64,000 bases of DNA, from contig MERI01000241.1 in assembly GCA_001772005.1 (NCBI GenBank), positions 1 through 64,000 on the forward strand, given 5' to 3'. The DNA is from Betaproteobacteria bacterium RIFCSPLOWO2_12_FULL_62_58 (GTDB lineage: Bacteria; Pseudomonadota; Gammaproteobacteria; Burkholderiales; SG8-41). The notes beneath the pieces were generated by a model. It was given only the letters and a program-made list of their open reading frames with translations. It did not search any database and was not told where the DNA came from. Positions 5,955-57,239 of this stretch are shown here, one piece after another. Numbering within the stretch: position 1 is the stretch's first letter; the number at the start of each line of letters is the position of its first letter. The position numbers and the translations under genes are program-made.

Positions 5955-6008
5955 GTCGGCTTGCCGTTCACGTCGTTTGTGGCATCTTGTTGATCAAGGC
6001 CTGCATTC

Positions 6009-6044
6009 TAGGAGTTTGTCGGACTTCGCCCCGACAAACTCCTA
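6009..6044. repeat. REP-like palindrome, copy 1
   Basis: TAGGAGTTTGTCGG and its exact complement CCGACAAACTCCTA flank an 8-base loop. The palindrome is followed by ATGCAAAACCGGCG and AT-rich DNA. The same block occurs at 37202, where 49 of the first 51 or so bases appear to match by eye. It lies between divergent tupB and moeA. Confidence 0.85.
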
Positions 6045-6140
6045 ATGCAAAACCGGCGCTAAAAGAATTGCAGAAGAGGATAACAGATACTCAAATCCTG
6101 TAAACTTTCGGCTCATACCGGGCTTAAATGAGGTTTAGCG

Positions 6141-31400: not shown

Positions 31401-31439
31401 CGATTCATACCCGGCGTTTTCCAGCAGGCGGTTTTGCAG

Positions 31440-31474
31440 TAGGAGGTTGTCGGGCAAAAGTCCGACATCTCCTA
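31440..31474. repeat. REP-like palindrome, diverged copy
   Basis: TAGGAGGTTGTCGG pairs imperfectly with CCGACATCTCCTA. It is preceded by CGGTTTTGC, as at the right end of the element at 37202-37418. It lies downstream of the esterase and may end its transcript. Confidence 0.65.
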
Positions 31475-31508
31475 GCCTGAGTCGTTAATTCGTTGCACAA
31501 TCTTGGGC

Positions 31509-31591
31509 GTAGGTTGGGGTACGCGCAGCGTTCCCCGACATCCGCTGAGCGTCAGGTAGCCACCGATGCGGCAACCTGACCTACACTTTCT
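31509..31591. repeat. Dispersed palindromic repeat, copy 1
   Basis: GTAGGTTGGGGTACGC with GCGTTCCCCGAC, and CAGGTAGC with CAACCTGACCTAC, make a nested inverted repeat whose ends also pair. Almost the same sequence recurs at 57045-57157. Repeats of this GTAGGTCGGG type are, from memory, common in proteobacterial genomes. Confidence 0.8.
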
Positions 31592-31640
31592 CAATGCGAG
31601 CGGCTTGAGGAATTCTGCATCGAAATAATGACTCACCACA

Positions 31641-32306
31641 TTAGGAAGGCGCTTCCACCGGCAATCCCGCGCTTTTCCATTCCGGGTAACCGTCTTCCAG
31701 ACGGCGCGCCTTGATGCCCTTCTTACGCAGAACCTGCACCGCCTCGTAAGCCAACAAGCAGTAGGGACCACGGCAGTAGGCGACCACCTCCTGGTCGGCC
31801 GGGATCTGATGCAGCTTTTTCTTCAGTTCCGTCACCGGCACGTTGATCGCGCCGCGGATGTGTCCTTGGGCGTATTCCTCGGGCGGACGCACGTCCAGGA
31901 CCGTCACCAGTCCTTGCTTGACTCGTTGCCACAGTTCCTTGGCCGGCACCGGCTCCAAGCTGTCCCTGCTGTCGAGAAAAAGCTTGATCAGCCGATCTAC
32001 ATCGGCCACGTGTTCTTCTCCCACCGCGCGCAGCGTGGCCAGCAGCCGGACAATGCCATCTCCGGCGATCCGATAGTAAACGTAAAGGCCTTCCTTGCGC
32101 GCCGTCACCAGCCCCACCTGACGCAGCTGCTGAAGGTGTTGCGAGGTGTTGGCAACGGAGAGCCCCGTCATCTGTGCGAGCTGCTCGACGCCGCGCTCGC
32201 CCTGTGCCAGAAACTCCAGCATTTCCAAGCGCTTGCCGCTGGACAACGCTTTGCCGATACGCGCGAACTGCTCGAACAAGTCGCGCTTGAAGTTGTGCTC
32301 TGACAT
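31641..32306 (-). CDS. ArsR-family regulator fused to a rhodanese domain
   Basis: This 221-residue protein has an ArsR winged helix (about 1-90; SVANTSQHLQQLRQVGLVTARKEGLYVYYRI) and a rhodanese domain (about 125-215) with active-site loop CRGPYC. Proteins of this build are proposed to sense persulfides or reactive sulfur. The start at 32306 is chosen over one 11 codons upstream. It is divergent from dsrE. The inverted repeat ATTCAA-N8-TTGAAT lies between them and is the likely operator for both. The two cysteines of the loop could form a sulfur-bridge sensor. Confidence 0.92.
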   Translation of the reverse strand: MSEHNFKRDLFEQFARIGKALSSGKRLEMLEFLAQGERGVEQLAQMTGLSVANTSQHLQQLRQVGLVTARKEGLYVYYRIAGDGIVRLLATLRAVGEEHVADVDRLIKLFLDSRDSLEPVPAKELWQRVKQGLVTVLDVRPPEEYAQGHIRGAINVPVTELKKKLHQIPADQEVVAYCRGPYCLLAYEAVQVLRKKGIKARRLEDGYPEWKSAGLPVEAPS

Positions 32307-32333
32307 CGCGCCGGGCTCCTTTATCGCTTGACT

Positions 32334-32353
32334 ATTCAAGTAATCAATTGAAT
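32334..32353. promoter_or_regulatory. Likely operator of the ArsR-rhodanese regulator
   Basis: ATTCAA, eight bases, then TTGAAT form an inverted repeat between the regulator gene and dsrE. The same half-sites and spacing recur at 44192-44211 before the broken dsrE copy, which is what marks it as an operator. Confidence 0.6.
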
Positions 32354-32439
32354 AATGTTACCATATTCCCGGCCTTCAGTTTAACCCACCGCAGGAATTT
32401 CCGGTTTGCTTATGCCATCAATCGCCGGCAGGAGGCACG

Positions 32440-32790
32440 ATGAAAACGCTTTTCATAGTGAACGATCCACCCTACGGCAGCGAGCGCAGCTATAATGCGC
32501 TGCGTCTCGCGCGGTCGCTGCTGAAGACGGGCGGCGCCGAGGTCAAGGTGTTCTTGATCGGCGATGCTGCCGCCTGCGCCAAAGCCGGGCAAAAAGTGCC
32601 TCAGGGTTTTTACAATATCGGTGACATGTTGGGCATGGTCCTGCGTGCCGGCGCTGAGGTCGGCGTATGCGGAACCTGCATCGACGCGCGCGGCATCGCA
32701 GAAACCGATCTGGTGCAGAGCGCCCACCGCAGCACGATGGACGAACTGACCGCATGGACGCAATGGGCCGACAAGATGCTGGTGTTCTGA
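32440..32790 (+). CDS. DsrE-family sulfur-relay-like protein
   Basis: This 116-residue protein has the DsrE/F fold with MKTLFIVNDPPYGSERSYNALRLARSLL, VKVFLIGDAAACAKAGQKVPQGFYNIG and VCGTCIDARGI. The CGTC cysteines are the probable sulfur-carrying residues. The start has an AGGAGG ribosome binding site. It is divergent from the ArsR-rhodanese gene and eight bases before an SQR-like flavoprotein, suggesting sulfide or persulfide handling. A broken paralog lies at 44247-44466. Confidence 0.9.
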   Translation: MKTLFIVNDPPYGSERSYNALRLARSLLKTGGAEVKVFLIGDAAACAKAGQKVPQGFYNIGDMLGMVLRAGAEVGVCGTCIDARGIAETDLVQSAHRSTMDELTAWTQWADKMLVF

Positions 32791-32797
32791 GACTGAA

Positions 32798-33958
32798 ATG
32801 GCGTCAGGCAAAACAATACTCGTACTCGGCGGCGGCGTCGGGGGCATCGTCGCGGCGATGCGGCTGCGGCGGCGGCTGCCGCCCGAGCATCGGGTAATCC
32901 TGGTCGAGAAGGAAGCGGATCATGTCTTTTCGCCCTCCTTTCTCTGGCTGATGATCGGAGAGCGGCGCGCCGGGGAGATCTCCCGACCGTTGGCGGCGTT
33001 GCGAAGGCGTGGTATCGAACTCGTGCAGGGCACGATCGAGCGCATCGACCCGGTTGAGCGACGGGTCCGCGTCGACGGCTCGGAACTTGTGGGCGACTCT
33101 CTGATCGTCGCGCTCGGCGCGGATCTCGCGCCGGAAGTCGTTCCGGGGCTCGCTGAAGCCGGACACAACTTCTACACGCTGGCCGGTGCGGCGTCGCTGC
33201 GGGCTGCGCTCTCGAAGTTGAGCCAAGGCCGCATCGCCGTGCTGGTCGCGTCCATGCCGTTCAAGTGTCCCGCCGCGCCGAACGAAGCCGCGATGCTGCT
33301 CGAGTATGATTGCCGCAGGCGCGGCGTGCGGCAGAACGCTTTGGTCGACCTTTACACGCCGGAACCGGGTCCCATGCCAGTCGCGGGACCGGCCGTATCC
33401 GCGGCATTGCGCCAGATGGTCGAGGCGAAAGGCATCGGCTACCACCCCGGCCATGCGGTCACCAGAGTTGATCCCGCCAACCACCGCCTGGCGTTTGCGA
33501 ACGGCGCTGAAGCCGATTTCGACCTGCTCGCATATGTACCGCCCCATTGCGCGCCCAAGGTGGTGCGGGATGCCGGGATGTGCGGCGAGAGCGGCTGGGT
33601 CCCCGTCGACCGCGGTACGCTCGCAACCAGGTTCCCGGATGTCTACGCGATCGGCGACGTGACGGGCATCATGCTCCCCTCGATCGGCAAACCGCTGCCG
33701 AAGGCAGGCGTGCTTGCACACAACGAGGCGGAAGTGGTGGCGCACAACATCGCGGTGGCCGTCTCCGGCCGCGGTGCGACGCGACAGTTCAGCGGCGAGG
33801 GCGAGTGCTTCGTGGAAACCGGCGACGGCCGTGCCGCTTTTGGCAGCGGCAACTTCTACGCCGATCCGGCGCCGCAAATCGAGCTCAAATCACCCAGCAG
33901 GCTCCTGCACTGGGGCAAGGTGGCGTACGAGAAATACTGGCTGTGGCGCCGCTTTTGA
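32798..33958 (+). CDS. FAD-dependent oxidoreductase, sulfide:quinone-reductase-like
   Basis: This 386-residue flavoprotein has an N-terminal dinucleotide fold TILVLGGGVGGIVAAMRLRRRL, HVFSPSFLWLMIGERR, a second nucleotide region, and YAIGDVTGIMLPSIGKPLPKAGVLAH, where the C-terminal FAD contact lies. The layout matches SQR and flavocytochrome c relatives. KCPAAPNEAAMLLE holds one cysteine, but a full set of SQR redox cysteines is not evident. No TAT or signal peptide is visible. It follows dsrE in one operon. A 62-codon piece of a second copy lies at 46503. Confidence 0.87.
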   Translation: MASGKTILVLGGGVGGIVAAMRLRRRLPPEHRVILVEKEADHVFSPSFLWLMIGERRAGEISRPLAALRRRGIELVQGTIERIDPVERRVRVDGSELVGDSLIVALGADLAPEVVPGLAEAGHNFYTLAGAASLRAALSKLSQGRIAVLVASMPFKCPAAPNEAAMLLEYDCRRRGVRQNALVDLYTPEPGPMPVAGPAVSAALRQMVEAKGIGYHPGHAVTRVDPANHRLAFANGAEADFDLLAYVPPHCAPKVVRDAGMCGESGWVPVDRGTLATRFPDVYAIGDVTGIMLPSIGKPLPKAGVLAHNEAEVVAHNIAVAVSGRGATRQFSGEGECFVETGDGRAAFGSGNFYADPAPQIELKSPSRLLHWGKVAYEKYWLWRRF

Positions 33959-34062
33959 CAAGAGCAAAGTGACCCCTCCCGCGCGCGGCGGGAAGCGCTG
34001 CCGCCCCCGCGGCGCGCCAGAGAGCAAAACAATCCATATCTTCGACATTGACTGCGCGACTG

Positions 34063-36387
34063 ATGAACAAGAACACTCTGGTCGAACTTTCCATCGCTCG
34101 TCCGAAACTCATCTTCGGGATCGTGCTGCTGGTAACGCTCGCTTTTGCCGTCCAGTTGCCGGGAATCCAGCTCGACACCAATCCCAAGAACATGCTCCCG
34201 CCGACCTCCGACGTCCGGATGTGGAACGACAACGTGGACCAGACCTTCGCTCTCTACGAGGACACCGTCGTCGTCGGGATCGTCCACCCGAAGAGCGTGC
34301 TGAACAGCGCTACCCTGGAGAAAGTGCGCGATATCACGGCCGAAATCCTGAGAATAAAAGGGGTGGCCGGACGCGACGTTTCCAGCTTCACCACCATCGA
34401 CAATGTCACGGCGGTGGCCGATGGCCTCAGGGTCGCTCCGCTGCTGACGAAGATACCGGCGAGCGAAGCCGAAATGCAGGCGCTGCGCAAAACGCTGATG
34501 GAGAACCCACTCTTCATCGACCGCATCATCTCCCGCGACGAAAAGACCACCGCGATCTACGTGCCGCTGGAAAAGGGCGCCAACGGCAAGGAGGTCGCCG
34601 ACCGCATCCGTGAGATCCTCGCCAAGTACTCCGGCGAGGAGCAGTACCACGTCGCGGGCGACCCCGTGGCGCGGGACACCTTCGGCGCCGAGATGTTCAA
34701 GCTGATGGGCATCTTCTCGCCGATCGCGGGGATGATCATGTTCGTCGCCATCTACGCCATGTTCCGGAACCTGGCGCTGGCCATGACCATGATGATGGTG
34801 GCCATGGTCGCGATCGTCTGGACCATGGGGCTGGGCATTGGCCTGGGTTTTCCGATCCACATCATGAGCTCGATGGCGCCGGTATTCCTGATGGCGATCG
34901 CCACCGACAGCATCCACATCTTCAACGAGTTCTACTTCCGCTTTCGCGAGAATAAAGACAAGCGGACGGCGATAGTCAAGACCATGGACGCAGTGGGCCG
35001 TCCGGTGCGCTACACCGCGCTCGCCACCGCCGCCGCCTTCGCCGTGCTGCTCTTCATGCAGATCGTGCCGGTCATGGTGTTCGGCGGCCTGATCGTCTTC
35101 GGCACGATCGCTCTGCGGCTTTTCAGCTTCAGTTTGATTCCCGCCATCCTCACCGTCGTGCGGGAGGAGAAGATAGGCCGCGTTGCCGCGGGCGAAGACA
35201 TCGCCATCGGCCGCACGGCGCGGGCGCTGAGGCAGCTTGGCGCCTGGGGTGCGGACCGGCCGAAGGCGACGGCCGCCATCGGCCTGGCGCTGATCGCGCT
35301 GGCTATTCTCGGCGTGAGCCGCATCGTAGTGAACAACAACCTGGTGGCGTGGTTCAAGCCGGGCAGCGAGATTCGCATTGCCGACGCGGTGATCAACCGG
35401 GCGCTGGGCGGCACCTCCCTCGGTTACGTGGTCGCCGCCGCCGGCGAGCCCGATGCCATCAAGCGGCCGGAGACCCTGCGTTATATCGAGGGCCTGCAGC
35501 GGCACCTGGAGAAACTGCCGGTCGTCGGCAAAACATTATCCGTGTCAGATTACGTCAAGCGCATCAACCGGGTGTTGCACGACGACGATCCGAAGTTCGA
35601 CGCGGTGCCCGATACCGCGGACATGATCGCGCAGTACCTGTTTCTCTTCAGCATGTCGGCCAAGCCCTCGGACCTCGACAACGTGGTGGACTACCCGTTC
35701 CAGAATGCCAACATCTGGGTGCAGCTCAAAACTTGGGATGCCGCGGCGATGGACAGCGTGATCCGGGCCACGACGGAATATCAGCGCCTCAACCCCGCGG
35801 CGCTGGAGTTCAAGCCCGCAGGCATCGCATACTTCAACCTGGTATGGAACCACGAGGTGCTGTGGGACATGGTGAAGGGCTTTCTCCTCGCCCTGGTAGC
35901 GGTCTTCCTCATCCTCGCGTTCGCCTTCCGCTCGCTCAAGTGGGCGCTCGTCGGTTATGTGCCGCTGCTCTTCACCATCCTGCTCATTTACGGGGTGGTC
36001 GGGTTTGCCGGCAAGGATTTCGACATGCCCATCTCCGTGCTGTCCTGCCTTTCCCTTGGCATGGCGGTGGATTTCTCGATCCATTTCATCAGCCGATTGA
36101 GGCAGCGGCTCGCGGAAATCGGCGTCGACGCCGGCCGTGATCTCTCCACTCTCAAGGAAGCGCTGCTGTGGACGGCGGCCCGTCCCGGCAAGGGCATCCT
36201 ACGCAACGCGTTACTCTTCGCGGCGGCCTTCTCGGTCATGCTATTCGCGCCGCTCACGCCGTACATCACGGTTGGCGCCTTCATCGTCAGCATGATGTTG
36301 CTCTCGGCGCTGCTCACCATTCTTTACCTGCCGGCCCTGATTGTGCTGATGAGAGGCTGGCTGTTCAACACGGGAGAAACGGAATGA
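34063..36387 (+). CDS. RND/MMPL-superfamily exporter
   Basis: This 774-residue protein has twelve predicted membrane helices in two halves with large periplasmic loops after helices 1 and 7, the layout of MMPL/RND exporters. FLMAIATDSIHIFNEFYFRFRENKDKRTAIVKTM and LSLGMAVDFSIHFISRL are the paired helix-4 motifs with Asp residues likely to carry protons. The ATG at 34063 is preferred over an upstream TTG. It overlaps the next gene by four bases. With the downstream lipoprotein-sorting-like gene and porin it may move a hydrophobic compound across the envelope. Confidence 0.88.
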   Translation: MNKNTLVELSIARPKLIFGIVLLVTLAFAVQLPGIQLDTNPKNMLPPTSDVRMWNDNVDQTFALYEDTVVVGIVHPKSVLNSATLEKVRDITAEILRIKGVAGRDVSSFTTIDNVTAVADGLRVAPLLTKIPASEAEMQALRKTLMENPLFIDRIISRDEKTTAIYVPLEKGANGKEVADRIREILAKYSGEEQYHVAGDPVARDTFGAEMFKLMGIFSPIAGMIMFVAIYAMFRNLALAMTMMMVAMVAIVWTMGLGIGLGFPIHIMSSMAPVFLMAIATDSIHIFNEFYFRFRENKDKRTAIVKTMDAVGRPVRYTALATAAAFAVLLFMQIVPVMVFGGLIVFGTIALRLFSFSLIPAILTVVREEKIGRVAAGEDIAIGRTARALRQLGAWGADRPKATAAIGLALIALAILGVSRIVVNNNLVAWFKPGSEIRIADAVINRALGGTSLGYVVAAAGEPDAIKRPETLRYIEGLQRHLEKLPVVGKTLSVSDYVKRINRVLHDDDPKFDAVPDTADMIAQYLFLFSMSAKPSDLDNVVDYPFQNANIWVQLKTWDAAAMDSVIRATTEYQRLNPAALEFKPAGIAYFNLVWNHEVLWDMVKGFLLALVAVFLILAFAFRSLKWALVGYVPLLFTILLIYGVVGFAGKDFDMPISVLSCLSLGMAVDFSIHFISRLRQRLAEIGVDAGRDLSTLKEALLWTAARPGKGILRNALLFAAAFSVMLFAPLTPYITVGAFIVSMMLLSALLTILYLPALIVLMRGWLFNTGETE

Positions 36388-37187
36388 AATCACTCTGGCG
36401 AATTGCCCTTTACCTGTTTGCGGTGGCCGCCGTGGTGTCGGCCACGGCGCGGGCCGCCGATCCCTCCGCCGACGACATCGTGAAGCGTTCCCTGGAAACG
36501 TTCTATTACGCCGGGAACGACATGCGCGCGAAGGTGCAGATGAAGCTCATCAATCCCCAAGGCAAGATACGGGAACGGGAAATGACCATGCTGAGGATCA
36601 ACCTCGGCAAATCGGGCGACCAGCGCTATTACATCTACTTCCATGGCCCGGCCGACGTGAAGGGCACCGCCTTCATGGTGTGGAAATATCCCGCCAAGGA
36701 GGACGACCGCTGGATCTTCGTGCCGACACTGAAGCTGGTGAAGCGCATCGCGGCGGACGACAAGCGTTCCTCGTTCGTCGGCTCGGATTTCACCTACGAG
36801 GACGTCTCGGGGCGCGAGCTGGAGGATGAGACCCATGCCCTCGTGCGTAAAGAAGGCCTGGGCGGGCGGCCGACGTACGTGGTCGAGAGCAAACCGAAGG
36901 CAGCGGCCGATTATTCCCGGCGCCTGTCCTGGATCGACTCGGAGCGCTGGCTGCCCCTCAAGGAAGAATACCTCGACGCGCGCAACGAGCCGCTGCGCAC
37001 ATTCAACGCCGACAAGGTGGATCAGACGGGAAAATACTGGACGGTCACGGCCCGCAGCATGAAGAACTTGCAGAGCGGTCACCGTACCGAGGTCGTCTAC
37101 CGAGAGGTGGAGTACGACGTCGGGCTGAAGCAGGACATCTTCACGGAACGCTACCTGCGTGATGCGCCCAGCCAGTGGGTGCGGTGA
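36384..37187 (+). CDS. Outer-membrane lipoprotein-sorting-like protein
   Basis: This 267-residue periplasmic protein has a signal peptide ending ARAA and a LolA/LolB-like beta domain. Visible blocks are FYYAGNDMRAKVQMKLINPQG, GDQRYYIYFHGPADVKGTAFMVWKYP, KRIAADDKRSSFVGSDFTYEDVSGR and RLSWIDSERWLPLKEEYLD. Such proteins are encoded beside MMPL/RND exporters and are thought to carry a hydrophobic cargo. It is translationally coupled to the exporter gene (ATGA). A REPIN-like element follows, separating it from the porin. Confidence 0.88.
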   Translation: MKSLWRIALYLFAVAAVVSATARAADPSADDIVKRSLETFYYAGNDMRAKVQMKLINPQGKIREREMTMLRINLGKSGDQRYYIYFHGPADVKGTAFMVWKYPAKEDDRWIFVPTLKLVKRIAADDKRSSFVGSDFTYEDVSGRELEDETHALVRKEGLGGRPTYVVESKPKAAADYSRRLSWIDSERWLPLKEEYLDARNEPLRTFNADKVDQTGKYWTVTARSMKNLQSGHRTEVVYREVEYDVGLKQDIFTERYLRDAPSQWVR

Positions 37188-37201
37188 CGGGATAGCAAGC
37201 C

Positions 37202-37418
37202 TAGGAGTTTGTCGGACTTAGCCCCGACAAACTCCTAATGCAAAACCGGCGCCAGTAAAATTGCAAAAGGGGATGACGGATATGCGAATTCACCCTGCTT
37301 TTCTTCATATTCGGCCGCTTCGAGTGGGTTTCCTTCTGAATTGCCTGCCTGCTGCAGGCAGGTCAGCCGGTTTTGCTTTTAGCAGCCTGTACGGACTGTT
37401 AAGTCCGACAGGCTGCTA
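37202..37418. repeat. REPIN-like mobile element, about 217 bp
   Basis: The left end is the palindrome TAGGAGTTTGTCGG/CCGACAAACTCCTA followed by GCAAAACCGGC. The right end has GCCGGTTTTGC followed by a second palindrome AGCAGCCTGT..CCGACAGGCTGCT. The inner GCAAAACCGGC blocks are exact inverted repeats. The whole thus looks like two inverted REP units around a spacer, as in REPIN elements moved by RAYT transposases. No transposase is in the window. It lies between the sorting-protein and porin genes. Confidence 0.7.
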
Positions 37419-37424
37419 GGGAGG

Positions 37425-38690
37425 ATGACCGCGGAGATAAGTCAGGCGGTGCGCATTGCGGCGAGCATGGCCGCGGCTTCGCTCGCGCTGGCGTCCTCTG
37501 TTGCCGCGGGAGCGGAGGGTGTCGCGTGGGGCGGCTTCGCGCAATCCCATGTGGTGGCGCGTACGAGCCGGGTTGACTGCCCTTCGGGAACAGCGTGCGA
37601 CTTTCCGGCCGCCGAGCTACGGGGACAGCTTAAGGCGGAGGGCAAGAACTCCAGCGGGGACGCAGCTTTCCTCGCGCGCTTCGACCTGCTTCGCGATGTT
37701 GCGGTTGACGACACGCGCCTCGTGACGCGGGAGCTGTTCGGGGATCTCACCTCCGAGAAGGCGAGCGCCCGCCTGGGACGCCAGGTAATGACCTGGGGCG
37801 TGGGGGATCTGCTCTTTATCAACGACACCTTTCCCAAGGATTGGGTCGCATTCTTCACCGGACAGCCGATGCAGTATCTCAAGCTCGGCAGCGACGCGCT
37901 CAAGCTGAACGCCTTTCCCGGTCCGGCCAACTTTGAACTGGTCATCGCCGGGTTCCGCCCCGACAACACGCCGACGAGCCGCCGTTTCATCTTCGCCGAC
38001 CCGCTGCCCGCCGGTCTGCCGCGGCGTACGCTAGAGCCTGGCAACGATTCAGGCGAGGTGGAGATTTCCGGCCGGATTTCCGGCTATCTCCACAACTGGG
38101 AACTGGCCGGCTACGTCTCGCGCACCCACTACCGCAGCCCGGCGTGGCGCGTGGCGGGCGCCGAGATTGTCGGCACTTATCCGCGCCTCAACACCGCCGG
38201 CGCCAGCCTCACCGGGCCCGTAGGCAAGGGCGTGCTGAGCATCGAGGCGGGGTACTACGACTCGCCCCAGGATCGGAACGGCCGCGATCCCTCCATCGAA
38301 AACCCCCAGTTCAGGGGACTCGTCGGGTACTCGCGGCAACTGTGGGAAGATGCGACACTCGGCTTGCAGTTCTACGGCGAATGGATGCGCGATTACGCGG
38401 CTTACCGGGAGACCCTGCCGGCCGGTTTTCCCGTGAAAGATCGTCTGCGCAAGGTGGCAACGGTTCGCTTCACCCAGTTTTTCGCCCACCAGACGGCCAT
38501 CTTCAATCTCTTCGCCTTCGTGGGCCTAAGCGAGGAGGATCGCTACGTCATCCCTTCGCTGCGTTATGCCTTCAGCGACAACCTCTGGGCCGAGGCCGGG
38601 GCCAATCTTCTCGGAGGCAAGCGTAACGGCATGTTCGGGTCGCTGCAAGATAACAGCAACGTTTACCTCACCGTTCGATACGCTTTCTAG
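37425..38690 (+). CDS. Outer-membrane beta-barrel porin-like protein
   Basis: This 421-residue protein has a signal peptide (ending AAGAE) and many short amphipathic segments rich in aromatic residues, ending LTVRYAF, where the C-terminal Phe is the outer-membrane signature. LGRQVMTWGVGDLLFINDTFPKDW resembles alginate-porin or DUF1302-like barrels. It lies six bases after the REPIN-like element. A 345 bp piece of a near-identical gene lies at 44464-44811. It may let substrate or product cross the outer membrane for the facing molybdoenzyme or the RND exporter. Confidence 0.82.
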   Translation: MTAEISQAVRIAASMAAASLALASSVAAGAEGVAWGGFAQSHVVARTSRVDCPSGTACDFPAAELRGQLKAEGKNSSGDAAFLARFDLLRDVAVDDTRLVTRELFGDLTSEKASARLGRQVMTWGVGDLLFINDTFPKDWVAFFTGQPMQYLKLGSDALKLNAFPGPANFELVIAGFRPDNTPTSRRFIFADPLPAGLPRRTLEPGNDSGEVEISGRISGYLHNWELAGYVSRTHYRSPAWRVAGAEIVGTYPRLNTAGASLTGPVGKGVLSIEAGYYDSPQDRNGRDPSIENPQFRGLVGYSRQLWEDATLGLQFYGEWMRDYAAYRETLPAGFPVKDRLRKVATVRFTQFFAHQTAIFNLFAFVGLSEEDRYVIPSLRYAFSDNLWAEAGANLLGGKRNGMFGSLQDNSNVYLTVRYAF

Positions 38691-39027
38691 CCCCGGCCCG
38701 GCTTTGACAAGCTTGATGCCGCAGCTTCAAGGCGCAAGGCTACGCGAAAAAAAGGCCGGGGGTGCCCCAGGCGATCGAAGAGTCGTGGCCAACGGCGGTC
38801 AGCACCGCCGCGTTGCTCGAAAACGGCGTGAAGCCTTGCAGGCCCTTGGCTGCGAATGTCTGGTAGGCAAGATTGAGCGAGCTACCCACCGCGTTGCTGT
38901 CGTTCAGCTTGAACGCCAGGATCGGCACGACGATCTACTGGGACAAATCCACGCCGGAGTGGTTAGTACCGCCGCCGCCAACACCTGGTCAATAGGCCGT
39001 GTTTGACTACTTCGAGACGGGCACTGA
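38691..39027. other. Intergenic region with possible gene remnant
   Basis: This 337 bp space separates the converging porin and heme-subunit genes. A 62-codon minus-strand frame (38740-38928) encodes MPILAFKLNDSNAVGSSLN and on to a stop. It has protein-like composition but no family I know, and its upstream frame is closed. It may be a remnant. No terminator of standard form is evident. Confidence 0.3.
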
Positions 39028-39741
39028 TCAGAACCGCAGTCGCCACCACTCTAGAGTCACGGCCTTGAACCCGTCGCGCTCCTGGTTGGCGCCGTCCCAA
39101 GCCGCAAAGGCGATCGGGATCTCACGCCGCCCGCTCAAATCAACTCCCGCCGTCGGCGAAGCGGAAAGCTTCCGCGCGAGCACTACCTCCCACCCACGTG
39201 CGCTACGCGCCCCGTGCGCGGCGACATTCTGCGCAACCGAGGCGTCCAGCGTGCCGAATCCGCCGGCGACCAGGTTCTCGGCGCGTCCGTCGGCGCGCCA
39301 GTACCATACGTTCACCGGGTTCTTCGCGTCGCCCATGAACGGCGTCGTGCTCGTCTTGCCGTTGACGGGAAACTGAATGGCGGCGCCGTCCAGGAAGCTA
39401 CTGGTATTGCTACGTTCGGTATTGGGGGCCGGATCATCCCAGGCCAACCGCACGAAGAGCGTGTCGCGCGTTCGCACCGCCTGCGCAGCGAGTTCTGTGA
39501 TGCGCGGCGCTCCGACGATGGCCACATGGCCCGGGAAGGCCGGCTGCAGGCTCACCTTGGTAACGGGGACCTTCGCCCAGATTTCCGCATCCGGCTTTGA
39601 GGCATCCACGCTCTTCGCCAAGGTCAGCGCCTTGACGATCTTGGCTTTCTCAGCGGCGTGTGCGCCAATCCCTGAAACCGACGCCGCGGCTAGGCCGACC
39701 AGCAGGACAGACACCGTCCGACGCCACATCGTGGTCCTCAT
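39028..39741 (-). CDS. Heme b-binding gamma subunit, type II DMSO reductase family
   Basis: This 237-residue periplasmic protein has a signal peptide (ending GAHA) and a beta-rich domain of the ethylbenzene/dimethylsulfide dehydrogenase gamma family. Visible are DTLFVRLAWDDP, DGAAIQFPV, PFMGDAKNPVNVWYWRADGRAENLVAGGFGTLD and GWEVVLARKLSA. The M in the PFMGD segment and a downstream Lys are placed like the axial heme ligands of that family. It is last in the order alpha-beta-chaperone-gamma and overlaps the chaperone stop. It should pass electrons to or from a periplasmic cytochrome. Confidence 0.87.
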   Translation of the reverse strand: MRTTMWRRTVSVLLVGLAAASVSGIGAHAAEKAKIVKALTLAKSVDASKPDAEIWAKVPVTKVSLQPAFPGHVAIVGAPRITELAAQAVRTRDTLFVRLAWDDPAPNTERSNTSSFLDGAAIQFPVNGKTSTTPFMGDAKNPVNVWYWRADGRAENLVAGGFGTLDASVAQNVAAHGARSARGWEVVLARKLSASPTAGVDLSGRREIPIAFAAWDGANQERDGFKAVTLEWWRLRF

Positions 39742-40307
39742 GGCACTACTCCTCGATCCAATTCCCTGAGCTGGGCTGCATGCCCGTCGCAAAACACGGC
39801 GAGGCCATGCGCAATCTCACCATAGGCCGTTTCACCCTTGCCGAGCCGCTCTGCGAACCCCGGCACCCACGCCAGCAGGTGCCTGCGAAGGAAATCGCGC
39901 TGCGCGCGCCGGCAATTCCCGGTATCGCCGCCGCGCTCGTTCTCCGCCTGCTCCATGGCGCAGAGGTGGGCAATGAACTCCAGTTCGGTAACCAGATGGT
40001 CGGGGTAGTCGCGATCGTTCGCGGCGAGTTTTACCCCGAAATAGTCGTAGAAACGCAGCAACTCCTCGAGGATCCCCTCGCGTCCGGCGCTCGACAGGCA
40101 CAAGCCTTCGTAGAGCGGCACCGCCTCGTTGCGACCAAGCTCGAACACGTCCATGTATTCGGTCTCACGCTCGGCTTGCGAGCGCGGCGGTGCCAAGCCC
40201 CGGCTTTCGAGCGGCGCCCAAACCGCATCGACCGGGTAAGAGAAGATCCGCGCAAACGCAAGGTACTGCGCCGCGTTGCAGCTCGCCACTGAGTCGCTCG
40301 CGCTCAC
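39738..40307 (-). CDS. TorD-family chaperone of the type II molybdoenzyme
   Basis: This 189-residue helical protein has ARIFSYPVDAVWAPLE, EYMDVFELGRNEAVPLYEGL and DYPDHLVTELEFIAHLCAMEQAE, the pattern of NarJ/DdhD/SerD-type chaperones. It should bind the alpha subunit before export and assist cofactor insertion. It overlaps both neighbours by four bases, so the whole operon is tightly coupled. Its place between beta and gamma matches the ABDC order of ddh, ser and clr operons. Confidence 0.85.
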   Translation of the reverse strand: MSASDSVASCNAAQYLAFARIFSYPVDAVWAPLESRGLAPPRSQAERETEYMDVFELGRNEAVPLYEGLCLSSAGREGILEELLRFYDYFGVKLAANDRDYPDHLVTELEFIAHLCAMEQAENERGGDTGNCRRAQRDFLRRHLLAWVPGFAERLGKGETAYGEIAHGLAVFCDGHAAQLRELDRGVVP

Positions 40308-41278
40308 AGCCGGTACCTGTCTTTGTTGGTGTAGCCGATCAGGATTTCGGTCAGCTCCGAGGGCTGGGCCTGACGGCGTTTCTGCATCTCGCGCCCCAGC
40401 GTCTCCAGCGCCGGCTGGACTCCCTTGCCGAACAGGGCCTCGAGGTCAGCCAGCGGGATGCGGGGCTTGTCGCCAAGCCGGCCGTCGTTCTCGAAGGGCG
40501 GTGGAGTGGTGTTCATTGGCGGCACATAGAAAACATTCGGCTCGGTGCCGTACTCCGCGTGCAGCGGCAGCGCCACCTTCCACTGCTCGACCAGCTTGTA
40601 GATCGGCCCATCCTTGTCGTCACGGTAACCCACGAAGCGAATCTTGCCCACGCATTGCGCGACGCAGGCCGGTGGGACGCCCTTCTCGACCCGCGGGTAA
40701 CAACCGATGCACTTCTCGGACTTGCCGGTCTGGAGATTGAAATAGACCTTGCCGTACGGACAGGCCTTCACGCAGTACTGGTAGCCCCGGCACCGGTCTT
40801 GGTCGATGACAACCAGCCCATCTTCTGGTCGCTTGTAGATCGCCTTGCGGGGACAGGCCGCAAGACAGGAGGGGTTGGAGCAGTGGTTGCAGATGCGCGG
40901 CAGGTAGAAGTAGTGGTTGTTCGGGAACTCGCCCCTGCCTTCGTCCTCGTCCCAGTTCGGGCCCCAGGTCGGCTTCTCGTGGGGCACCACCTGGTTGCCC
41001 TTGCCTTCCAGCAGCACTTCCTGGAGGTTGTACTCCCACAAGCCGCCGTAATCGGCCATCGGCGGGATCTTGCCGTCCGTCTGCAACACCCCTTTCTTGA
41101 AGCCGCCGCCCTTCTGCTCCCAGTTTTTCGGATAGCCTTTGCCGGGGCGGGTCTCGACGTTGTTCCAGTACATGTATTCGCGCCCGCCGCGGTTGGTCCA
41201 GAGCTGCTTGCACGCCATGGTGCAGGTGTGGCAGCCGATGCACTTGTTCAGATCGAATACATAGGCCAACTGTCTCAT
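40304..41278 (-). CDS. Iron-sulfur beta subunit, type II DMSO reductase family
   Basis: This 324-residue protein has four cysteine groups: CIGCHTCTMACKQLW, CNHCSNPSCLAACP, CRGYQYCVKACP and CIGCYP/CVAQC. In the third group a Tyr-Gln pair replaces a ligand, consistent with one [3Fe-4S] cluster as in Nar, Ebd, Ser and Ddh beta subunits. GKNYVEE-like acidic loops are replaced by WDEDEGRGEFPNNHYFYLPRICNHC. No signal peptide is present, so it is co-exported with alpha. It starts ten bases after alpha. Confidence 0.93.
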   Translation of the reverse strand: MRQLAYVFDLNKCIGCHTCTMACKQLWTNRGGREYMYWNNVETRPGKGYPKNWEQKGGGFKKGVLQTDGKIPPMADYGGLWEYNLQEVLLEGKGNQVVPHEKPTWGPNWDEDEGRGEFPNNHYFYLPRICNHCSNPSCLAACPRKAIYKRPEDGLVVIDQDRCRGYQYCVKACPYGKVYFNLQTGKSEKCIGCYPRVEKGVPPACVAQCVGKIRFVGYRDDKDGPIYKLVEQWKVALPLHAEYGTEPNVFYVPPMNTTPPPFENDGRLGDKPRIPLADLEALFGKGVQPALETLGREMQKRRQAQPSELTEILIGYTNKDRYRL

Positions 41279-41288
41279 GACGATATCC

Positions 41289-44039
41289 TCAGGCCTTCTC
41301 GACGTCTACCGACGTCTCGTAGAAAATCCGGTTCGGGTTGAAGGCGCCCGACACGTAGCGAATGTGGCCGTAGCCGCCCACCAGCTCGAGCGGGTTGATC
41401 AGCTCGGAACCGACGAAATTGTAATGGGTCATGTTCTTGTACAAGTACTGCTCCCAGCCGTGCTCGGAGAAAAGCATGTTGTCCGGCAGCGCGGGCCAGG
41501 CTTTCGCCATGGCGAAGAACTCGCCGTGGGAGTTGAACACTCGCACGGTGTCACCGTCCTTGATGCCTTTCTTCGCCATCGCCTTCGGGCTCAGGCACAC
41601 GTCCGGTTCTCCGCGCTGGTGCCGCAGCAGCCATGTCTCGTTGCGTCCCCACGAATGGATGCCCCAGCGCGTATGCGGCGAGTTGGTGACGAAGGGATAC
41701 TTCTTCGGTCCCAGGTTCCCGCCCTTGTACTGCGGCTTGGGCACCGTCGCGCCGAGACGCTGGAACCAGTCGTGGTCCACGTAGAACTGCAGGCGCCCGG
41801 TCAGTGTCGCGTAAGGCTTCTTCTCCGTGACGTTGGTCGTGAACGGGCGGTACGGCTTGTCTTTCGGCACAGGCCCCGTCTTGCCGGCCGACGGGCCGAC
41901 CGCGACAAAGCCTTTCTTCATCGCTTCCTCGTAGGTGCCGGGGCCGAGCGCCTTCGATCTCTCCATGACGAAGCGCAGCGCGGCCTCATCCGTCGCGATG
42001 GCGCCGTTCATGGTGAACTCGTCATATACGTTGTCGAAATCGATGGCGCTTTTGATCTCGGGATCGTCCACCCTTGAGACGCCGCGCGCCCTGGCGCGCT
42101 CCTGGATCTTCTTCGCCAGCTCGACGCAGATCTGCCAGTCGGTCTTGCGCTCGTACATGGGCTTGACCGGCTGCCCGTAGGCGTGGATGAAGCGCGTCAC
42201 CGAGGTTTCGCGGATATCGAGCTTCTGCTGCTCGGGCGCGGCGGGAAGCACGATGTCCGCGTACATCGCCCCCGAGTTGAGGCGGTAATCCACCACTACC
42301 AGCAGCTCGCAGCGCTTGAGGAAATTCTCCGCCAGGTGCTGATAGGCGTTCGACGTGGCGAACACGTTGATGCCGGCGTTGATGGTCACCACGGGGTCCT
42401 TGATGGACTGCCACTTGGGCATCCAGCCCTTCGCTTCCGACTCCTTACGCATGGCCTCCATGTCGTCGACGCCAAAGCCGAGCGCCTCCTTTAACTGGCT
42501 GTCGTCGAAGTAGGCCTTGGTGCGCCGGTACTGCTCGCCCCACACCCACTGCGCCAGCACCGCGGAGACGCTGCGCCCGGGCTTGCCCTTCACACTGACC
42601 ATTTCACTGGACCCTTCCAGCCGCCAGCCTTCGTAGGTGGTGTCGATGGACCCCGTGGTGCCGTGGTGTCCGATCAACGTGAGGATCAGGATCTTCAGCC
42701 GCCCGCACTGGAAACCGTCGAAGTGCTTCTGGTTGTTGTACCCGTCGAGGATACGCAGCGCCTTGCTCTCGGCGATCCAGCCAGCGAGCTTGCGCGTGAC
42801 GGACGCATGCACGCCGGTCGTCGCCTGGGTGGCTTCCGGCGTATACGGGGCGATCTCGGCCTTCAGCCGCTCGAAGACGGTGGTGACCTCGATGCCCTGC
42901 GCGGAGAACGCACCTTCCAGCGCTGGATCGACCGCGCCGAACTTCAAGGTCTTGTCCCTGCTTCCCATGCTGCCGGGCGCCGGCACTGCCCTGCCGGATT
43001 TCGCATCCCAAACGTAGAAAATCTCTTCGCTGCCGTCCGCCTTGAAGTCCTTCTCGCGCAGGAACTTGCCGTTGTCGGTGCGCACCAGGAAGGGCAGGTC
43101 TGTCTGCTCCTTCAGGTAATCCGCCTTGTAGTGCTTGTTGGCGATCAGCACGTTCACGATCGCCGCCGCGAGGTGCGAATCCGTTCCCATGCGAACTGGC
43201 ACGTACAGATCCGAGTGGATGGAGGACTGGTTGTAGTCTACGGAGATGTTCACCAGCCGCGCGCCGTTGTAGCGCGCCTCCATCAGGAAGTGGGCGTCCG
43301 GAATCCGCGTGACGATGGGATTCTTGTGCCACATCAGGATCAGGTCGGAGGTGAACCAGTCGTCGAACGTCGACACGGTCCGGGCCGGTATGCGCACCGT
43401 GTGGATGCCCGGATAGAGGTCGCCGGTCATCGAGGAGACGTCCGGTTTGATGGCGCCCAGCAGGTTGGCGAGCCGCGTGTAGGCGTTGTTGGTGATGACG
43501 GCGAAGGGGCGCTTCGGCATGTAGATGTTGCCGGGGCCGCGCTTCTGCGTGGTATCGATGATCTTGTCCGCGATTTCCGTGAGCGCTTCGTCCCAGGTGA
43601 TGCGTTTCCATTTGCGCTCGCCGCGCGCGCCGACGCGCTTCAGCGGATACTTCAGGAAGTCTGGCTGCTTCACCCAGGAGCAATACACGGCGCCCTTCTG
43701 GCAGCCGCGCGGGTTCATGTCGGGTATCCCGGGCAACTGCGGGTACTCGGCGACCTGCTCGTCGCGCAACGGTACGCCGTCCTTGACATACACGCGCCAC
43801 GCGCAGCCGGCCACACAGCCGTTGGAGTGGGTGGTGAACCCGACCGAATCCCAGGTCCACTCCTTCCGGTAGAGGTCTTCCCAGCCGCGGTACGGGTAGG
43901 ACTTCAGCGGGTCCTCGATGGGCTGGATCTTCGAGAACGCCAGCACGCCCGAAGGCGCCAGACCGCTCGCCGCAATCGCGCCGAACGCCTTGATGAAATC
44001 CCGTCTCGCTTGCGACGCCCTCGGGTTACCAATCGCCAT
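41289..44039 (-). CDS. Type II DMSO-reductase-family catalytic alpha subunit
   Basis: This 916-residue periplasmic molybdoenzyme has a TAT signal (R12-R13, [10 protein letters not shown]). H71, C75, C79 and C113 form a His/Cys cluster site typical of type II enzymes. D207 in [10 protein letters not shown] is a candidate metal ligand. [21 protein letters not shown] is like ethylbenzene and steroid C25 dehydrogenase relatives. AAGGAGATCAGCT before the ATG fixes the start. The ABDC gene order instead resembles dimethylsulfide dehydrogenase, selenate and chlorate reductases, so substrate and direction remain open. An FNR box lies upstream. Confidence 0.9.
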
Positions 44040-44165
44040 AGCTGATCTCCTTGACCGCACTCCGTGCGTTTGTACCCGCAACCCCGCACAAACGTTTGCG
44101 GCAAATCAAACGAGCGGTGCGCGAGATCACGCTGTAATTATCCGCGCGCCGCGCGGCAGCAACGT

Positions 44166-44179
44166 TTGATCTAGATCAA
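44166..44179. promoter_or_regulatory. FNR/ANR box upstream of the molybdoenzyme operon
   Basis: TTGATCTAGATCAA is an exact match to the consensus TTGAT-N4-ATCAA and is fully palindromic. It lies 126 bp before the alpha start codon on the minus strand, a usual distance for activation under low oxygen. It could also act on the broken dsrE copy on the other side. Confidence 0.8.
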
Positions 44180-44191
44180 CCTTTGCCTCAT

Positions 44192-44211
44192 ATTCAACTA
44201 TTAACTTGAAC
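44192..44211. promoter_or_regulatory. Second copy of the ArsR-rhodanese operator
   Basis: ATTCAA, eight bases, then TTGAAC match the operator at 32334 in half-sites and spacing. It lies between the alpha-subunit operon and the remnant dsrE, beside the FNR box. Confidence 0.55.
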
Positions 44212-44246
44212 AGTTGATAAAGTTCCCTGAGCCAAGCGAGATTTCC

Positions 44247-44466
44247 CTGAAACACCTGTTTTTGCTCAACGATGCTCCCTACGGCAACGAACGCAGCTAC
44301 AACGCCCTGCGGCTCGCCCGCAGCCTGCTCAAGTCCGGAGGCGAGGAGGTGAAAGTGTTTCTCATCGGCGATGCGGTGGCCTGTGCCAAGGCGGGCCAGA
44401 AGGTGCCGCAGGGCTATTACAACATCGGCGACATGGTCGTACGCCACGGAGGCGAGATCGGCGTGG
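44247..44466 (+). pseudogene. 5' fragment of a second dsrE gene, start codon lost
   Basis: The frame encodes KHLFLLNDAPYGNERSYNA, VKVFLIGDAVACAKAGQK and YYNIGDM, clearly the paralog of the gene at 32440. The initiator is CTG where the intact copy has ATG. After GGEIGV the sequence jumps into porin sequence in another frame, before the CGTC cysteines. It retains the operator copy upstream. It cannot make a working DsrE protein. Confidence 0.88.
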
Positions 44467-44811
44467 GAGGATGCCACGCTCGGCTTGCAGCTCTACGGCG
44501 AATGGATGCGCGACTATGCAGCCTACCGGGAGACCCTGCCCGCCGGTTTTCCCGTGAAAGATCGTCTGCGCAAGGTGGCAACGGTTCGCTTCACCCAGTT
44601 TTTCGCCCACCAGACGGTCATCTTCAATCTCTTCGCCTTCGTGGGCCTAAGCGAGGAGGATCGCTACGTCATTCCATCACTGCGCTACGCCTTCAGCGAT
44701 AATCTCTGGGCCGAGATCGGCGCAAATCTTTTCGCAGGCAAGCGTAACGGCATGTTCGGGTCGCTGCAGGATAACAGCAACATTTACCTCACCGTTCGAT
44801 ATGCTTTCTAA
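44464..44811 (+). pseudogene. 3' fragment of a second porin gene
   Basis: From WEDATLGLQLYGEW to LTVRYAF this is the C-terminal 115 residues of the porin at 37425, with few nucleotide differences over about 345 bp. It is joined directly to the dsrE fragment but in a different frame, and the join falls in GTGGGAGG, which both sources partly share. The genes originally between them in a duplicated cluster are gone. Confidence 0.9.
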
Positions 44812-44814
44812 GGC

Positions 44815-45419
44815 TGTGCGGTTGAGCGCGGCCGGAATATATGTAACTCATTGGGCGCAGTCCTTTGGCATACGCCAATTCAAGCTGGACGATCCTGAAG
44901 CCTGGATTAGTTTGTCCATTTCCGGTTTAGATTGCATCCTCCGGTGAGCCTGCTCCATAACGGGTTGAGTCGTTCCTGCCACACCCGAACACCTGCCTCG
45001 GGCACGACTCCGTGCTTGGCAAAAAGCAGCGTTCCGCCCGGTTTCAGCACTCGCTTCATTTCCGTCAAGGCCTTGATAGGGTCCGGGATGGTGCATAGCG
45101 TCCACGTCGTGACTACCATGTCAAGACGGCAGTCGTCCAACGGAATCTCCTCGCCCGTGTGCGCCAGGAACTCGATCGGAAACGGGGCGGCGTCCGCCTT
45201 TTTTCTCGCCATTTGCAGCAGTTCCTCCGACGGATCGAGCGCAAAGAGGCGGCTGACGGTGGCTCCGTAGAACGGCAGATTCAGTCCCGATCCGACGCCG
45301 ATCTCCAGGACGGTGCCGCATGCCTGCGGCACGAGCTGTGAGCGGAATCGCGTTGCTTCCTTGTTTCGCATCGCGAGGTCCGTCAATCGCGGCAAGATCC
45401 ATTTGTCATAGACGTTCAT
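44815..45419 (-). pseudogene. SAM methyltransferase gene with two C-terminal frameshifts
   Basis: The N-terminal 170 residues are intact: MNVYDKWILPRLTDLAM, VLEIGVGSGLNLPFY as SAM motif I, and VTTWTLCTIPDP. After GGCNLNRK the frame ends early, but the next frame continues MDKLIQASG and the third continues FRIVQLELAYAKG and SYIYSGRA, the usual tail of this family. One base appears lost after NRK and a few near QASG. The shortened frame 44907-45419 could still be translated. It lies beside the truncated merR gene. Confidence 0.7.
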
Positions 45420-45604
45420 ATCGTGTGCAATTCTAATGCCGGTGTTGATGGTGCAGGCCCATTCGCGCTGCGCCACACGTGCATTTTTAGCCGCACTGCA
45501 AGCAGTTCCAGGCTATTGCCCACGTACAGCAATCCCGCTTTTTCGTAATAGCGTATGGTCTCGACCCGGCAATCGGCGCGTTTGGCGAGTACCCCTATGT
45601 GCAT
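45416..45604 (-). pseudogene. Truncated MerR-family regulator
   Basis: The first 26 residues, MHIGVLAKRADCRVETIRYYEKAGLL, are a MerR winged-helix start. The rest bears no resemblance to the wing, dimer helix or metal loop, and the frame ends after 62 codons. It is divergent from a metal exporter whose promoter has a MerR-type operator. So the original regulator of that exporter is probably this gene, now inactive. Confidence 0.8.
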
Positions 45605-45684
45605 GTCATCGGCGGATGGTTGCTATGGAAAGTCCCAGAGTCTTGAACACGTAGAGCATGGCCGCCCTTCCATCAGTTTACCGC

Positions 45685-45715
45685 TTGACCCTATACTAAC
45701 TATGGGGTATCAAAT
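45685..45715 (+). promoter_or_regulatory. MerR-type promoter of the metal exporter
   Basis: TTGACC is followed by an ACCCTATA-CTAAC-TATGGGGT dyad and then TATCAAAT. The dyad sits in the spacer, as in promoters twisted into activity by MerR relatives such as PbrR and CadR. It drives the exporter at 45754. Confidence 0.7.
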
Positions 45716-45753
45716 TCACAATTGAATCGTCCTGGCCAGGCCGGAATGCGTCG

Positions 45754-46395
45754 ATGGATTGCTGCAACGACAAGGAATGTGCGATTGAGGCGTTGAAAGG
45801 ACGGCAGAGCGCCACATTGCGCATGGTATTGGTGATCAACGTCGTCATGTTCGTCATTGAACTGACATCCGGATTGCTCGCGAAATCAACGGCGCTGTTA
45901 TCCGACTCTCTCGACAACCTGGGTGACGCGCTGACCTACGGATTGAGCCTTTATGCCGTATCACGCGGGGCGAGATCGAAGGCAATGGTCGCGCTTTTCA
46001 AGGGCGGCCTGATCACGCTTGCCGGCCTGTTCGTTCTTGGCCAGGTCGCTTACAGGATGATTCATCCCAGCGTTCCGATCTTCGAGACGATGGGAGTGAT
46101 CAGCATTGTCGCGCTTGTTGCGAACGGCACCTGCCTGGCATTGCTCTGGAAGCACCGGACCGAAGATATCAATATGAGTTCGGTGTGGGAATGTTCGCGA
46201 AACGACATCGCCTCGAATCTCTCCGTTTTTCTCGCTGCGGCAGGAGTCTGGTTCACCGGGTCAGGCTGGCCCGACCTGGTAGTCGGTTTGGCACTCGCCT
46301 CCTTGTTCCTGTGGTCCGCCGGCAAAGTTCTTACAAGAGCGATTCGCCAGCTACGCGATTCAAGGCCGGGCATCGCCGAGCGGTCAATTACGTGA
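45754..46395 (+). CDS. Cation diffusion facilitator metal exporter
   Basis: This 213-residue inner-membrane protein has six hydrophobic segments and the CDF blocks ELTSGLLAKSTALLSDSLDNLGDAL, where S/D residues form the metal site, and ECSRNDIASNLSVFLAAAGVWFTGSGWPDLVVGLALASLFL. The N-terminus MDCCNDKEC has three cysteines that may bind metal. It lacks the usual cytoplasmic C-terminal domain, so it is a short-form CDF. MerR-type promoter elements precede it, pointing to Pb, Cd or Zn, but the regulator gene is broken. Confidence 0.88.
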   Translation: MDCCNDKECAIEALKGRQSATLRMVLVINVVMFVIELTSGLLAKSTALLSDSLDNLGDALTYGLSLYAVSRGARSKAMVALFKGGLITLAGLFVLGQVAYRMIHPSVPIFETMGVISIVALVANGTCLALLWKHRTEDINMSSVWECSRNDIASNLSVFLAAAGVWFTGSGWPDLVVGLALASLFLWSAGKVLTRAIRQLRDSRPGIAERSIT

Positions 46396-46472
46396 GGTAG
46401 GGTGATCCCGCCGCTCTCGGCAATGACGCATTTCTTTTACTGGTCACTGTTACGCGACTCTCTGGGGCTGGC

Positions 46473-46501
46473 GCTCCACGCCGTTCCCAGAGGCGTGGAG
46501 C
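46473..46501. terminator. Hairpin at the junction before the flavoprotein fragment
   Basis: GCTCCACGCC and GGCGTGGAGC form a perfect ten-base stem with a nine-base loop. No T-run follows, so it is not a standard terminator. It abuts the left end of the duplicated flavoprotein fragment, where sequence identity starts. Confidence 0.4.
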
Positions 46502-46502
46502 C

Positions 46503-46693
46503 GTTAGCGGTGCGACGCGACAGTTCAGCGGCGAGGGCGGGTGCTTCGTGGAAACGGGCGACGGGAAAGCGGGCTTCGGGAGCGGCAACTTCTACGCCGA
46601 CCCGGCGCCGCAAATCGAGCTCAAATCCCCCAGCAGGCTCCTGCACTGGGGCAAGGTGGCATACGAGAAATACTGGCAATGGCGCCGCTTTTG
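46503..46693 (+). pseudogene. 3' fragment of a second SQR-like flavoprotein gene
   Basis: The frame GATRQFSGEGGCFVETGDG to KYWQWRRF and stop copies the last 60 or so codons of the gene at 32798, with roughly ten percent nucleotide differences by eye. The upstream part is absent and there is no start. With the dsrE and porin fragments it shows that a second copy of the sulfur-type cluster once existed here. Confidence 0.88.
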
Positions 46694-46748
46694 ACTCCTT
46701 CGCAACCCTATACTGATCCTGTCCACCCACCCGGGCTAGAGTGTCGCC

Positions 46749-47426
46749 ATGGATCCCGCCACCTATGATGCCTGGTATCGCACGCCGCGCGGTAGCTGGA
46801 TCGGTGAAGTCGAGTACCGACTGTTGTACCGCATGCTGGCGCCTTCGCCTGGAGACAGCCTGCTGGATGTCGGCTGCGGAACGGGTTACTTCACACGCCG
46901 CTTTGCGCAAGATGCCGGCCTGTGCGTAACCGGCCTCGATCCTGACCGCGATGGGCTCGATTACGCTCGGGCGCATGGCGGCCCGAATGAAGTTTACATT
47001 GCCGGCGATGCGCGTGACCTTCCTTTTCCCGATGCGGGTTTCGACTTTGTCGTCTCGGTCACTGCGCTCTGCTTCATTCAAGACCAGCGACGCGCGCTGC
47101 AGGAGATTGCGCGCGTCGCCCGCAAACGGTTTCTGTTGGGACTGCTCAACCGGCACAGCATGCTCTATCGGCAGAAGGGGCGCGGCGGCGGCACAGGCGC
47201 GTACCACGGCGCGCACTGGCATGCGATCAGCGAGGTTCACGACTTGTTACGCAATCTTGCCGTGCGCGATGCGCTCGTCCGTACTGCGGTGTTCGTTCCC
47301 TCCGCAGGCGCGATCGCCAGGGTCCTCGAACGGCTCGCGCCGAACTTCCTGCCATGGGGCGCATTCATCGCGGTTGCGGGCAGCCCATGCCCCGACGAAC
47401 CCTCGCGCGGGATCAGCGCACCGTGA
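46749..47426 (+). CDS. Class I SAM-dependent methyltransferase
   Basis: This 225-residue protein has SAM motif I LLDVGCGTGYFTRRFA, the acidic GLDPD, AGDARDLPFPDAGFDFVVSVTALCFI as motifs II/III, and RFLLGLLNRHSM. It is of the UbiE/Methyltransf_11 type, with no feature giving a substrate. It converges on selD with a 14-base overlap of the ends. Nothing in the neighbourhood ties it to selenium, though some organisms methylate selenium; that is speculation. Confidence 0.85.
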   Translation: MDPATYDAWYRTPRGSWIGEVEYRLLYRMLAPSPGDSLLDVGCGTGYFTRRFAQDAGLCVTGLDPDRDGLDYARAHGGPNEVYIAGDARDLPFPDAGFDFVVSVTALCFIQDQRRALQEIARVARKRFLLGLLNRHSMLYRQKGRGGGTGAYHGAHWHAISEVHDLLRNLAVRDALVRTAVFVPSAGAIARVLERLAPNFLPWGAFIAVAGSPCPDEPSRGISAP

Positions 47427-54845: not shown

Positions 54846-55046
54846 TCCTAATTTTTCATCCCTTCCCCCCAGGGGGAAGGTTAGGATGGGGGTGGGGGTA
54901 GCTTGCCCACACAGTAACCCATCCCCACCCTAACCCTCCCGTTCCCTCATCCCCGACCCTTCTCCCGGAAGGAGAAGGGAGGCTCGAGCTTCCTCTCGCC
55001 CTCTGGGAGAGAGGTCAGGAGTGAGGGCTGGAAGGGGAGGGAATTA
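54846..55046. repeat. Dispersed repeat cluster between rpsR and rplI
   Basis: About 200 bp contain CCTTCCCCCAGGGGGAAGG, GGATGGGGGTGGGG, CCATCCCCACCC, CCCGACCCTTCTCCCGGAAGGAGAAGGG and CTCTGGGAGAGAGG, several mutually complementary. They make two or three nested hairpins. The CCCTCATCCCC/GGGAGAAGG words match the repeat at 50585. Such repeats are, from memory, common between proteobacterial genes. Confidence 0.7.
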
Positions 55047-57027: not shown

Positions 57028-57044
57028 TTGAAAAACATAAAGAC

Positions 57045-57157
57045 GTAGGTCGGGGTACGCGCAGCGTTCCCCGACATCCACTTGGCCTGCCTGTGCGTGA
57101 CCGCACGCAGACAGGCGTCAGGTAGCCGCCGATGCGGCAACCTGACCTACACTTTCT
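57045..57157. repeat. Dispersed palindromic repeat, copy 2
   Basis: The sequence from GTAGGTCGGGGTACGC to GACCTACACTTTCT matches the copy at 31509, except for a roughly 30 bp insert that is itself a hairpin (GCCTGCCTGTGCGTG / CACGCAGACAGGC). It fills most of the gap between rlmB and rnr. Confidence 0.8.
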
Positions 57158-57239
57158 GAATTCATAGGGTTGGAGCGCCCATTCACGCCTGAAGAGATGC
57201 GCTTAACAAGGAAAACCGTGATCTTATAATTAATAGATT

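Follow-up and report, generated by a model that had tools for sequence, protein, structure and literature searches.

The 64,000-nucleotide window analyzed here contains, between 44.2 and 46.7 kb, broken pieces of a dsrE, a porin, and a flavoprotein (SQR) gene, whose intact counterparts are located at 32.4–38.7 kb. This raises the question of whether the pieces derive from a duplication of that resident cluster, as the first-pass annotation had proposed, or from a second cluster of separate origin. The evidence set out below makes it probable that the region is a non-functional scar of a diverged second version of the cluster, which was foreign in origin, eroded by deletion, and partly converted. 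Xenologous clusters are known to decay through deletions at short homologies, accompanied by local gene conversion, and this is an established origin of bacterial pseudogene remnants. The scar shares with such remnants its truncated genes, frameshifts, few-base joints, and local homogenization with an intact relative, but differs from them in mixing source divergences within 2.5 kb and in including unrelated metal-resistance fragments.

The intact cluster forms the base of an island situated between convergent GDSL lipase and selD genes, which are 16 kb apart here and 31–253 bp apart in nine relatives. Its components are as follows.

31401–47412, no strand assigned: 16 kb island inserted between the GDSL lipase gene and selD
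31641–32339, minus strand: ArsR-rhodanese regulator of the resident cluster (Pfam HTH_5 and Rhodanese), near dsrE in most relatives
32440–38690, plus strand: resident intact cluster (Pfam/NCBIfam), collinear in G001, G002, and G003, with the same island in G109
32440–32790, plus strand: DsrE, resident cluster
32798–33958, plus strand: SQR-like flavoprotein, resident cluster
34048–36387, plus strand: MMPL, resident cluster
36402–37187, plus strand: LolA-like protein, resident cluster
37425–38690, plus strand: porin, resident cluster
46749–47426, plus strand: MT2 methyltransferase, the usual 3' end of the island, intact here

At the same site, G109 carries a regulator-DsrE-SQR-MMPL-LolA-porin-MT2' island (read from two contigs, each holding part of MMPL) and G050 a shorter one. 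These resemble the island in the window in insertion point, regulator, dsrE, and SQR (G109 also in MMPL, LolA, and porin) but have neither the ser/clr-type operon nor the remnant described below, and MT2 is a decayed gene in both. Since MT2 has an internal deletion or a truncation in G050, G109, and G016, erosion is common at the island site; the gene is shortened differently in each (L041 9900–10000, L042 500–640, and L030 9031–9246, respectively). In the window, about 8 kb of extra sequence lies between porin and MT2, comprising the ser/clr-type operon and the pieces of the second cluster.

The DNA at 26.2–31.4 kb is mostly nearer to genus g2 (75–80%) than to the organism's own genus (66–67% over MacB), and the SelD protein is 92% identical to that of G050 versus 82% to that of G001, whereas the DNA further out best matches the own genus (84% to G002 and 83% to G003). 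Homologous exchange is thus suggested as the route by which the island arrived, with 26200–48400 likely being the block that carried it. Within these limits MacB, GDSL, and selD are all nearer to genus g2 (G050 and G110) than to the own genus.

The scar itself is composed of stubs of the second cluster interspersed with parts of other genes.

44247–44462, plus strand: dsrE' stub, with CTG as start, a 9-nt internal deletion, and the 3' third gone
44463–44811, plus strand: porin' stub, the 3' 27% of the gene, holding the conversion tract 44524–44672
44812–45476, minus strand: MT1' methyltransferase pseudogene and porin-side spacer, with two frameshifting deletions at the 3' end
45440–45618, minus strand: MerR' fusion, joined across about 9–12 nt of shared sequence, CAGCAATCC
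45754–46395, plus strand: CDF1, intact cation diffusion facilitator of 213 aa (PF01545/TIGR01297; w 0.10–0.15)
46416–46506, plus strand: CDF2', second CDF gene, internally deleted relative to the intact CDF2 of G007, with the joint at about CTGGTCnCTG
46507–46695, plus strand: SQR' (flavoprotein) stub, the 3' 16% of the gene, with a 3' flank of G001/G016 type

A BLAST search of the window against itself matched porin' (44463–44810) to 38342–38689 with 92.5% nucleotide identity (E 4e-145), SQR' (46507–46695) to 33771–33959 with 91.5% (E 2e-72), and dsrE' (44268–44435) to 32461–32628 with 77.4% (E 4e-31), all three far above chance; the SQR' stub had no match in Pfam. The three broken fragments reported initially are therefore real, although their description as near-identical to genes 12 kb away fits porin' and SQR' loosely and dsrE' not at all, and the two porin copies are 6.1 kb apart. 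The loss of the dsrE' start and the out-of-frame fusion to porin' were both correctly recognized: the start-codon position is occupied by CTG, and the frame changes at the joint between the two stubs. In addition, dsrE' lacks 9 nt present in all family relatives aligned. An 8-bp junction repeat, GTGGGAGG, had been put forward as sequence shared by both parents. This was rejected because the parents differ at the joint (TGTGGGA[A/G]GATGC in the porins and GGCGT(N)TGCGG in the dsrEs) and have GT or GTG at most in common, making the 8-bp sequence a property of the joint only. With truncation, a lost start, and frameshifts relative to intact relatives, the stubs have the makeup of pseudogene remnants, and no product would be expected from dsrE', porin', or SQR'.

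The breakage of MT1, MerR', and CDF2' was missed in the first-pass annotation. When set against five relatives, MT1 (44907–45476, minus strand) has lost 1 nt and 7 nt close to its 3' end. In contig C61, which belongs to this genome, the partner sequence of the MerR' fusion is a neighbor of MerR, ∼0.5 kb from it. The scar is also joined to a YnfA-MerR-CDF metal module, of which CDF1, under purifying selection across relatives, is the only intact gene among the scar parts.

Duplication of the resident cluster within this lineage, followed by deletion and insertion in the second copy, would account for the 91–92% identity of porin' and SQR' to the resident copies and for the runs of up to 76 identical bases in a row. 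A recent duplicate should, however, be similarly close to the resident genes throughout and have matching flanks. Synonymous divergence from the resident genes (NG86 dS, rough values computed on 183–345 nt) was far higher for dsrE' (about 2.5), which is synonymously saturated, than for porin' (about 0.29) or SQR' (about 0.32); both porin' and SQR' have a w of about 0.1. In the DsrE tree, which rests on about 72 residues, the resident dsrE pairs with that of G050 (support 0.995), with dsrE' outside this clade and placed, with weak support, with G079 and G215. Moreover, porin' is equally near to the porin of G016, which belongs to another genus, and to the resident porin (92.2% each). The flanks also belong to the clusters of other genomes. 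The porin'-MT1 neighborhood is unlike that of the resident cluster, with the same adjacency found in G001 and G002, and the first bases 3' of SQR' resemble G001 and G016 and not the resident SQR. For dsrE', recent duplication was rejected on the basis of its saturation and its position in the tree. Taken together, the unequal dS values, the dsrE tree, and the foreign flanks make duplication of the resident cluster unlikely and argue with good confidence that the stubs are the eroded remains of a divergent, foreign-looking second version. What stands of the original proposal is a second cluster that is broken and whose pieces were brought together by deletions. The stubs may stem from two or three sources instead of one second cluster.

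The near-identity cited in favor of duplication is confined to a bounded tract. Between 44524 and 44672 (149 bp), porin' holds only 2 of its 27 mismatches to the intact porin (p 0.004 with all sites counted and 0.0007 with polymorphic sites alone), and every site common to just the two porin copies falls inside it. Such an excess of identity, bounded, between two copies, and not shared with relatives, is the pattern of gene conversion, and the local near-identity of porin' is best read as a tract homogenized with the intact porin.

A chimeric contig joining reads of related organisms would be another source of such a mosaic. The assembly is in 277 contigs with an estimated contamination of 6.25%, and the 76-bp exact porin match could mislead an assembler. 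The other joints, however, have no more than about 12 bp in common, a match shorter than those over which assemblers typically join reads, and the small indels in MT1 and dsrE' are not joints at all. Furthermore, both ends of the island lie in the GDSL/selD backbone, and the DNA beyond is nearest to the same genus. Misassembly is consequently considered quite unlikely.

With an eroded foreign version as the preferred explanation, the following course of events is suggested. A second version of the cluster would have entered from another lineage; it was redundant, and deletions at matches of 3–12 bp, together with small frameshifts, would have stripped it of most of its sequence; the joints are visible in the sequence, and the process is deduced from them. 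Part of porin' would have been overwritten by the resident porin, or have overwritten it, through gene conversion. None of the 74 family and 399 order genomes searched has the second cluster whole and ordered as proposed, so as to represent the donor, and both donor and order of events are consequently inferred. The decay itself is ordinary, but the scar is unusually legible, and the acquisition, partial overwriting, and dismantling of a redundant respiratory gene cluster can be read from it.

Control sequences remain upstream of dsrE', where the first-pass annotation had noted an intact operator.

32334–32352, plus strand: ArsR-type operator ATTCAAGTAATCAATTGAA upstream of the intact dsrE; comparable sites precede dsrE in four relatives (L032, L029, L050, and L093)
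44166–44179, no strand assigned: perfect FNR-type box TTGATCTAGATCAA, the only perfect one in the window
44192–44210, plus strand: ArsR-type operator ATTCAACTATTAACTTGAA upstream of dsrE', one of only two in the window

The pattern ATTCAA-N7-TTGAA occurs in exactly two places in 64 kb, at 32334 and 44192, against 0.018 expected by composition, and to this extent the operator is real; its second half-site at dsrE', however, has drifted (TTGAACA). An identical FNR-type box precedes the homologous reductase operon in G016, and the box therefore most likely belongs to the divergent ser/clr-type operon. Retention of an operator and an open porin' frame might suggest that the stubs were kept for use, either as a promoter/operator platform or through a chimeric ORF (44371–44811) yielding a porin tail. 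This ORF, however, begins within dsrE in the wrong frame and is without almost three quarters of the porin, and, with the half-site drifted and the FNR box accounted for by the divergent operon, such a use is very improbable. On the account of decay preferred here, the remaining control sequence would have persisted mainly because it lies within the intergenic region shared with the ser/clr-type operon.

This operon occupies most of the extra sequence between porin and MT2.

39028–44081, minus strand: ser/clr-type DMSO reductase II operon, TIGR03479/03478/03477 above cut-off
39028–39792, minus strand: reductase subunit C
39738–40307, minus strand: reductase subunit D
40304–41278, minus strand: reductase subunit B
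41289–44081, minus strand: reductase subunit A

The alpha, beta, and heme b subunits all score above the family cut-offs for type II DMSO reductases, a Nitrate_red_del chaperone subunit is present, and the order A-B-D-C is that of serABDC of Thauera selenatis and clrABDC of Ideonella dechloratans and Alicycliphilus. Subunit A is 82% identical at the amino acid level to ClrA of Ideonella/Alicycliphilus, and the operon is 80–82% identical to copies in Sedimenticola; the sequence comparison did not separate Ser from Clr. An ethylbenzene dehydrogenase-like assignment was dropped when more detailed comparison gave the ser/clr type. Chlorite dismutase (PF06778), which adjoins clr in Ideonella and Alicycliphilus, was not found in the genome, making a chlorate-respiration module less likely, and we infer selenate as the substrate. 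In place of the dismutase of the clr systems, the DsrE-SQR-MMPL-LolA-porin cluster lies alongside. Sedimenticola selenatireducens, a selenate respirer, has one ser-like and one clr-like operon in its genome (PMC5052931). The reductase alpha gene of G016 (L044 646–3373) is frameshifted around residue 423, which may point to decay or misassembly of the operon there. A 62-codon reading frame at 38740–38928 (minus strand), between porin and the reductase operon, had no match in a Pfam scan and is possibly a gene fragment.

Searches of the family and order found the operon at ≥80% identity in G000, G016, and G215 only, and in all three, genes of the dsrE/SQR cluster are at most about 6 kb away from it. 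Three further copies, in two Sedimenticola genomes, are each within about 12 kb of such genes. These cases are not fully independent samples, since dsrE' had also led to G215, and the porin to the Sedimenticola genomes. At least four different arrangements of the pairing were seen: in the window the rare operon (39028–44081) stands beside the cluster at 31641–38690, and G016, G215, and Sedimenticola have other arrangements. We tentatively propose that the DsrE-SQR-MMPL-LolA-porin-MT2 cluster, more than just a sulfur cluster, could serve as a partner module to respiration of the ser/clr type (probably of selenate) and be carried as a recombining island, with the scar recording repeated assembly and loss of the pairing. 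If the pairing is functional, the cluster offers candidates for the genes that deal with sulfur or selenium products arising in selenate/chlorate-type respiration. The recurrent pairing is of more interest than the scar itself. The literature searched contained no description of a DsrE-SQR-MMPL-LolA cluster, whether by itself or together with ser genes.

Repeats are also present in the window. A dispersed repeat lies within the island at 37201–37420 and 31412–31475 and again at 6008–6089, and also occurs in relatives (L035, L039, L119, and L122). Outside the island, the sequences at 54935–55040 and 57042–57160 (∼110 bp, 90–98% identical) recur in many G003 contigs and apparently represent another dispersed repeat family.
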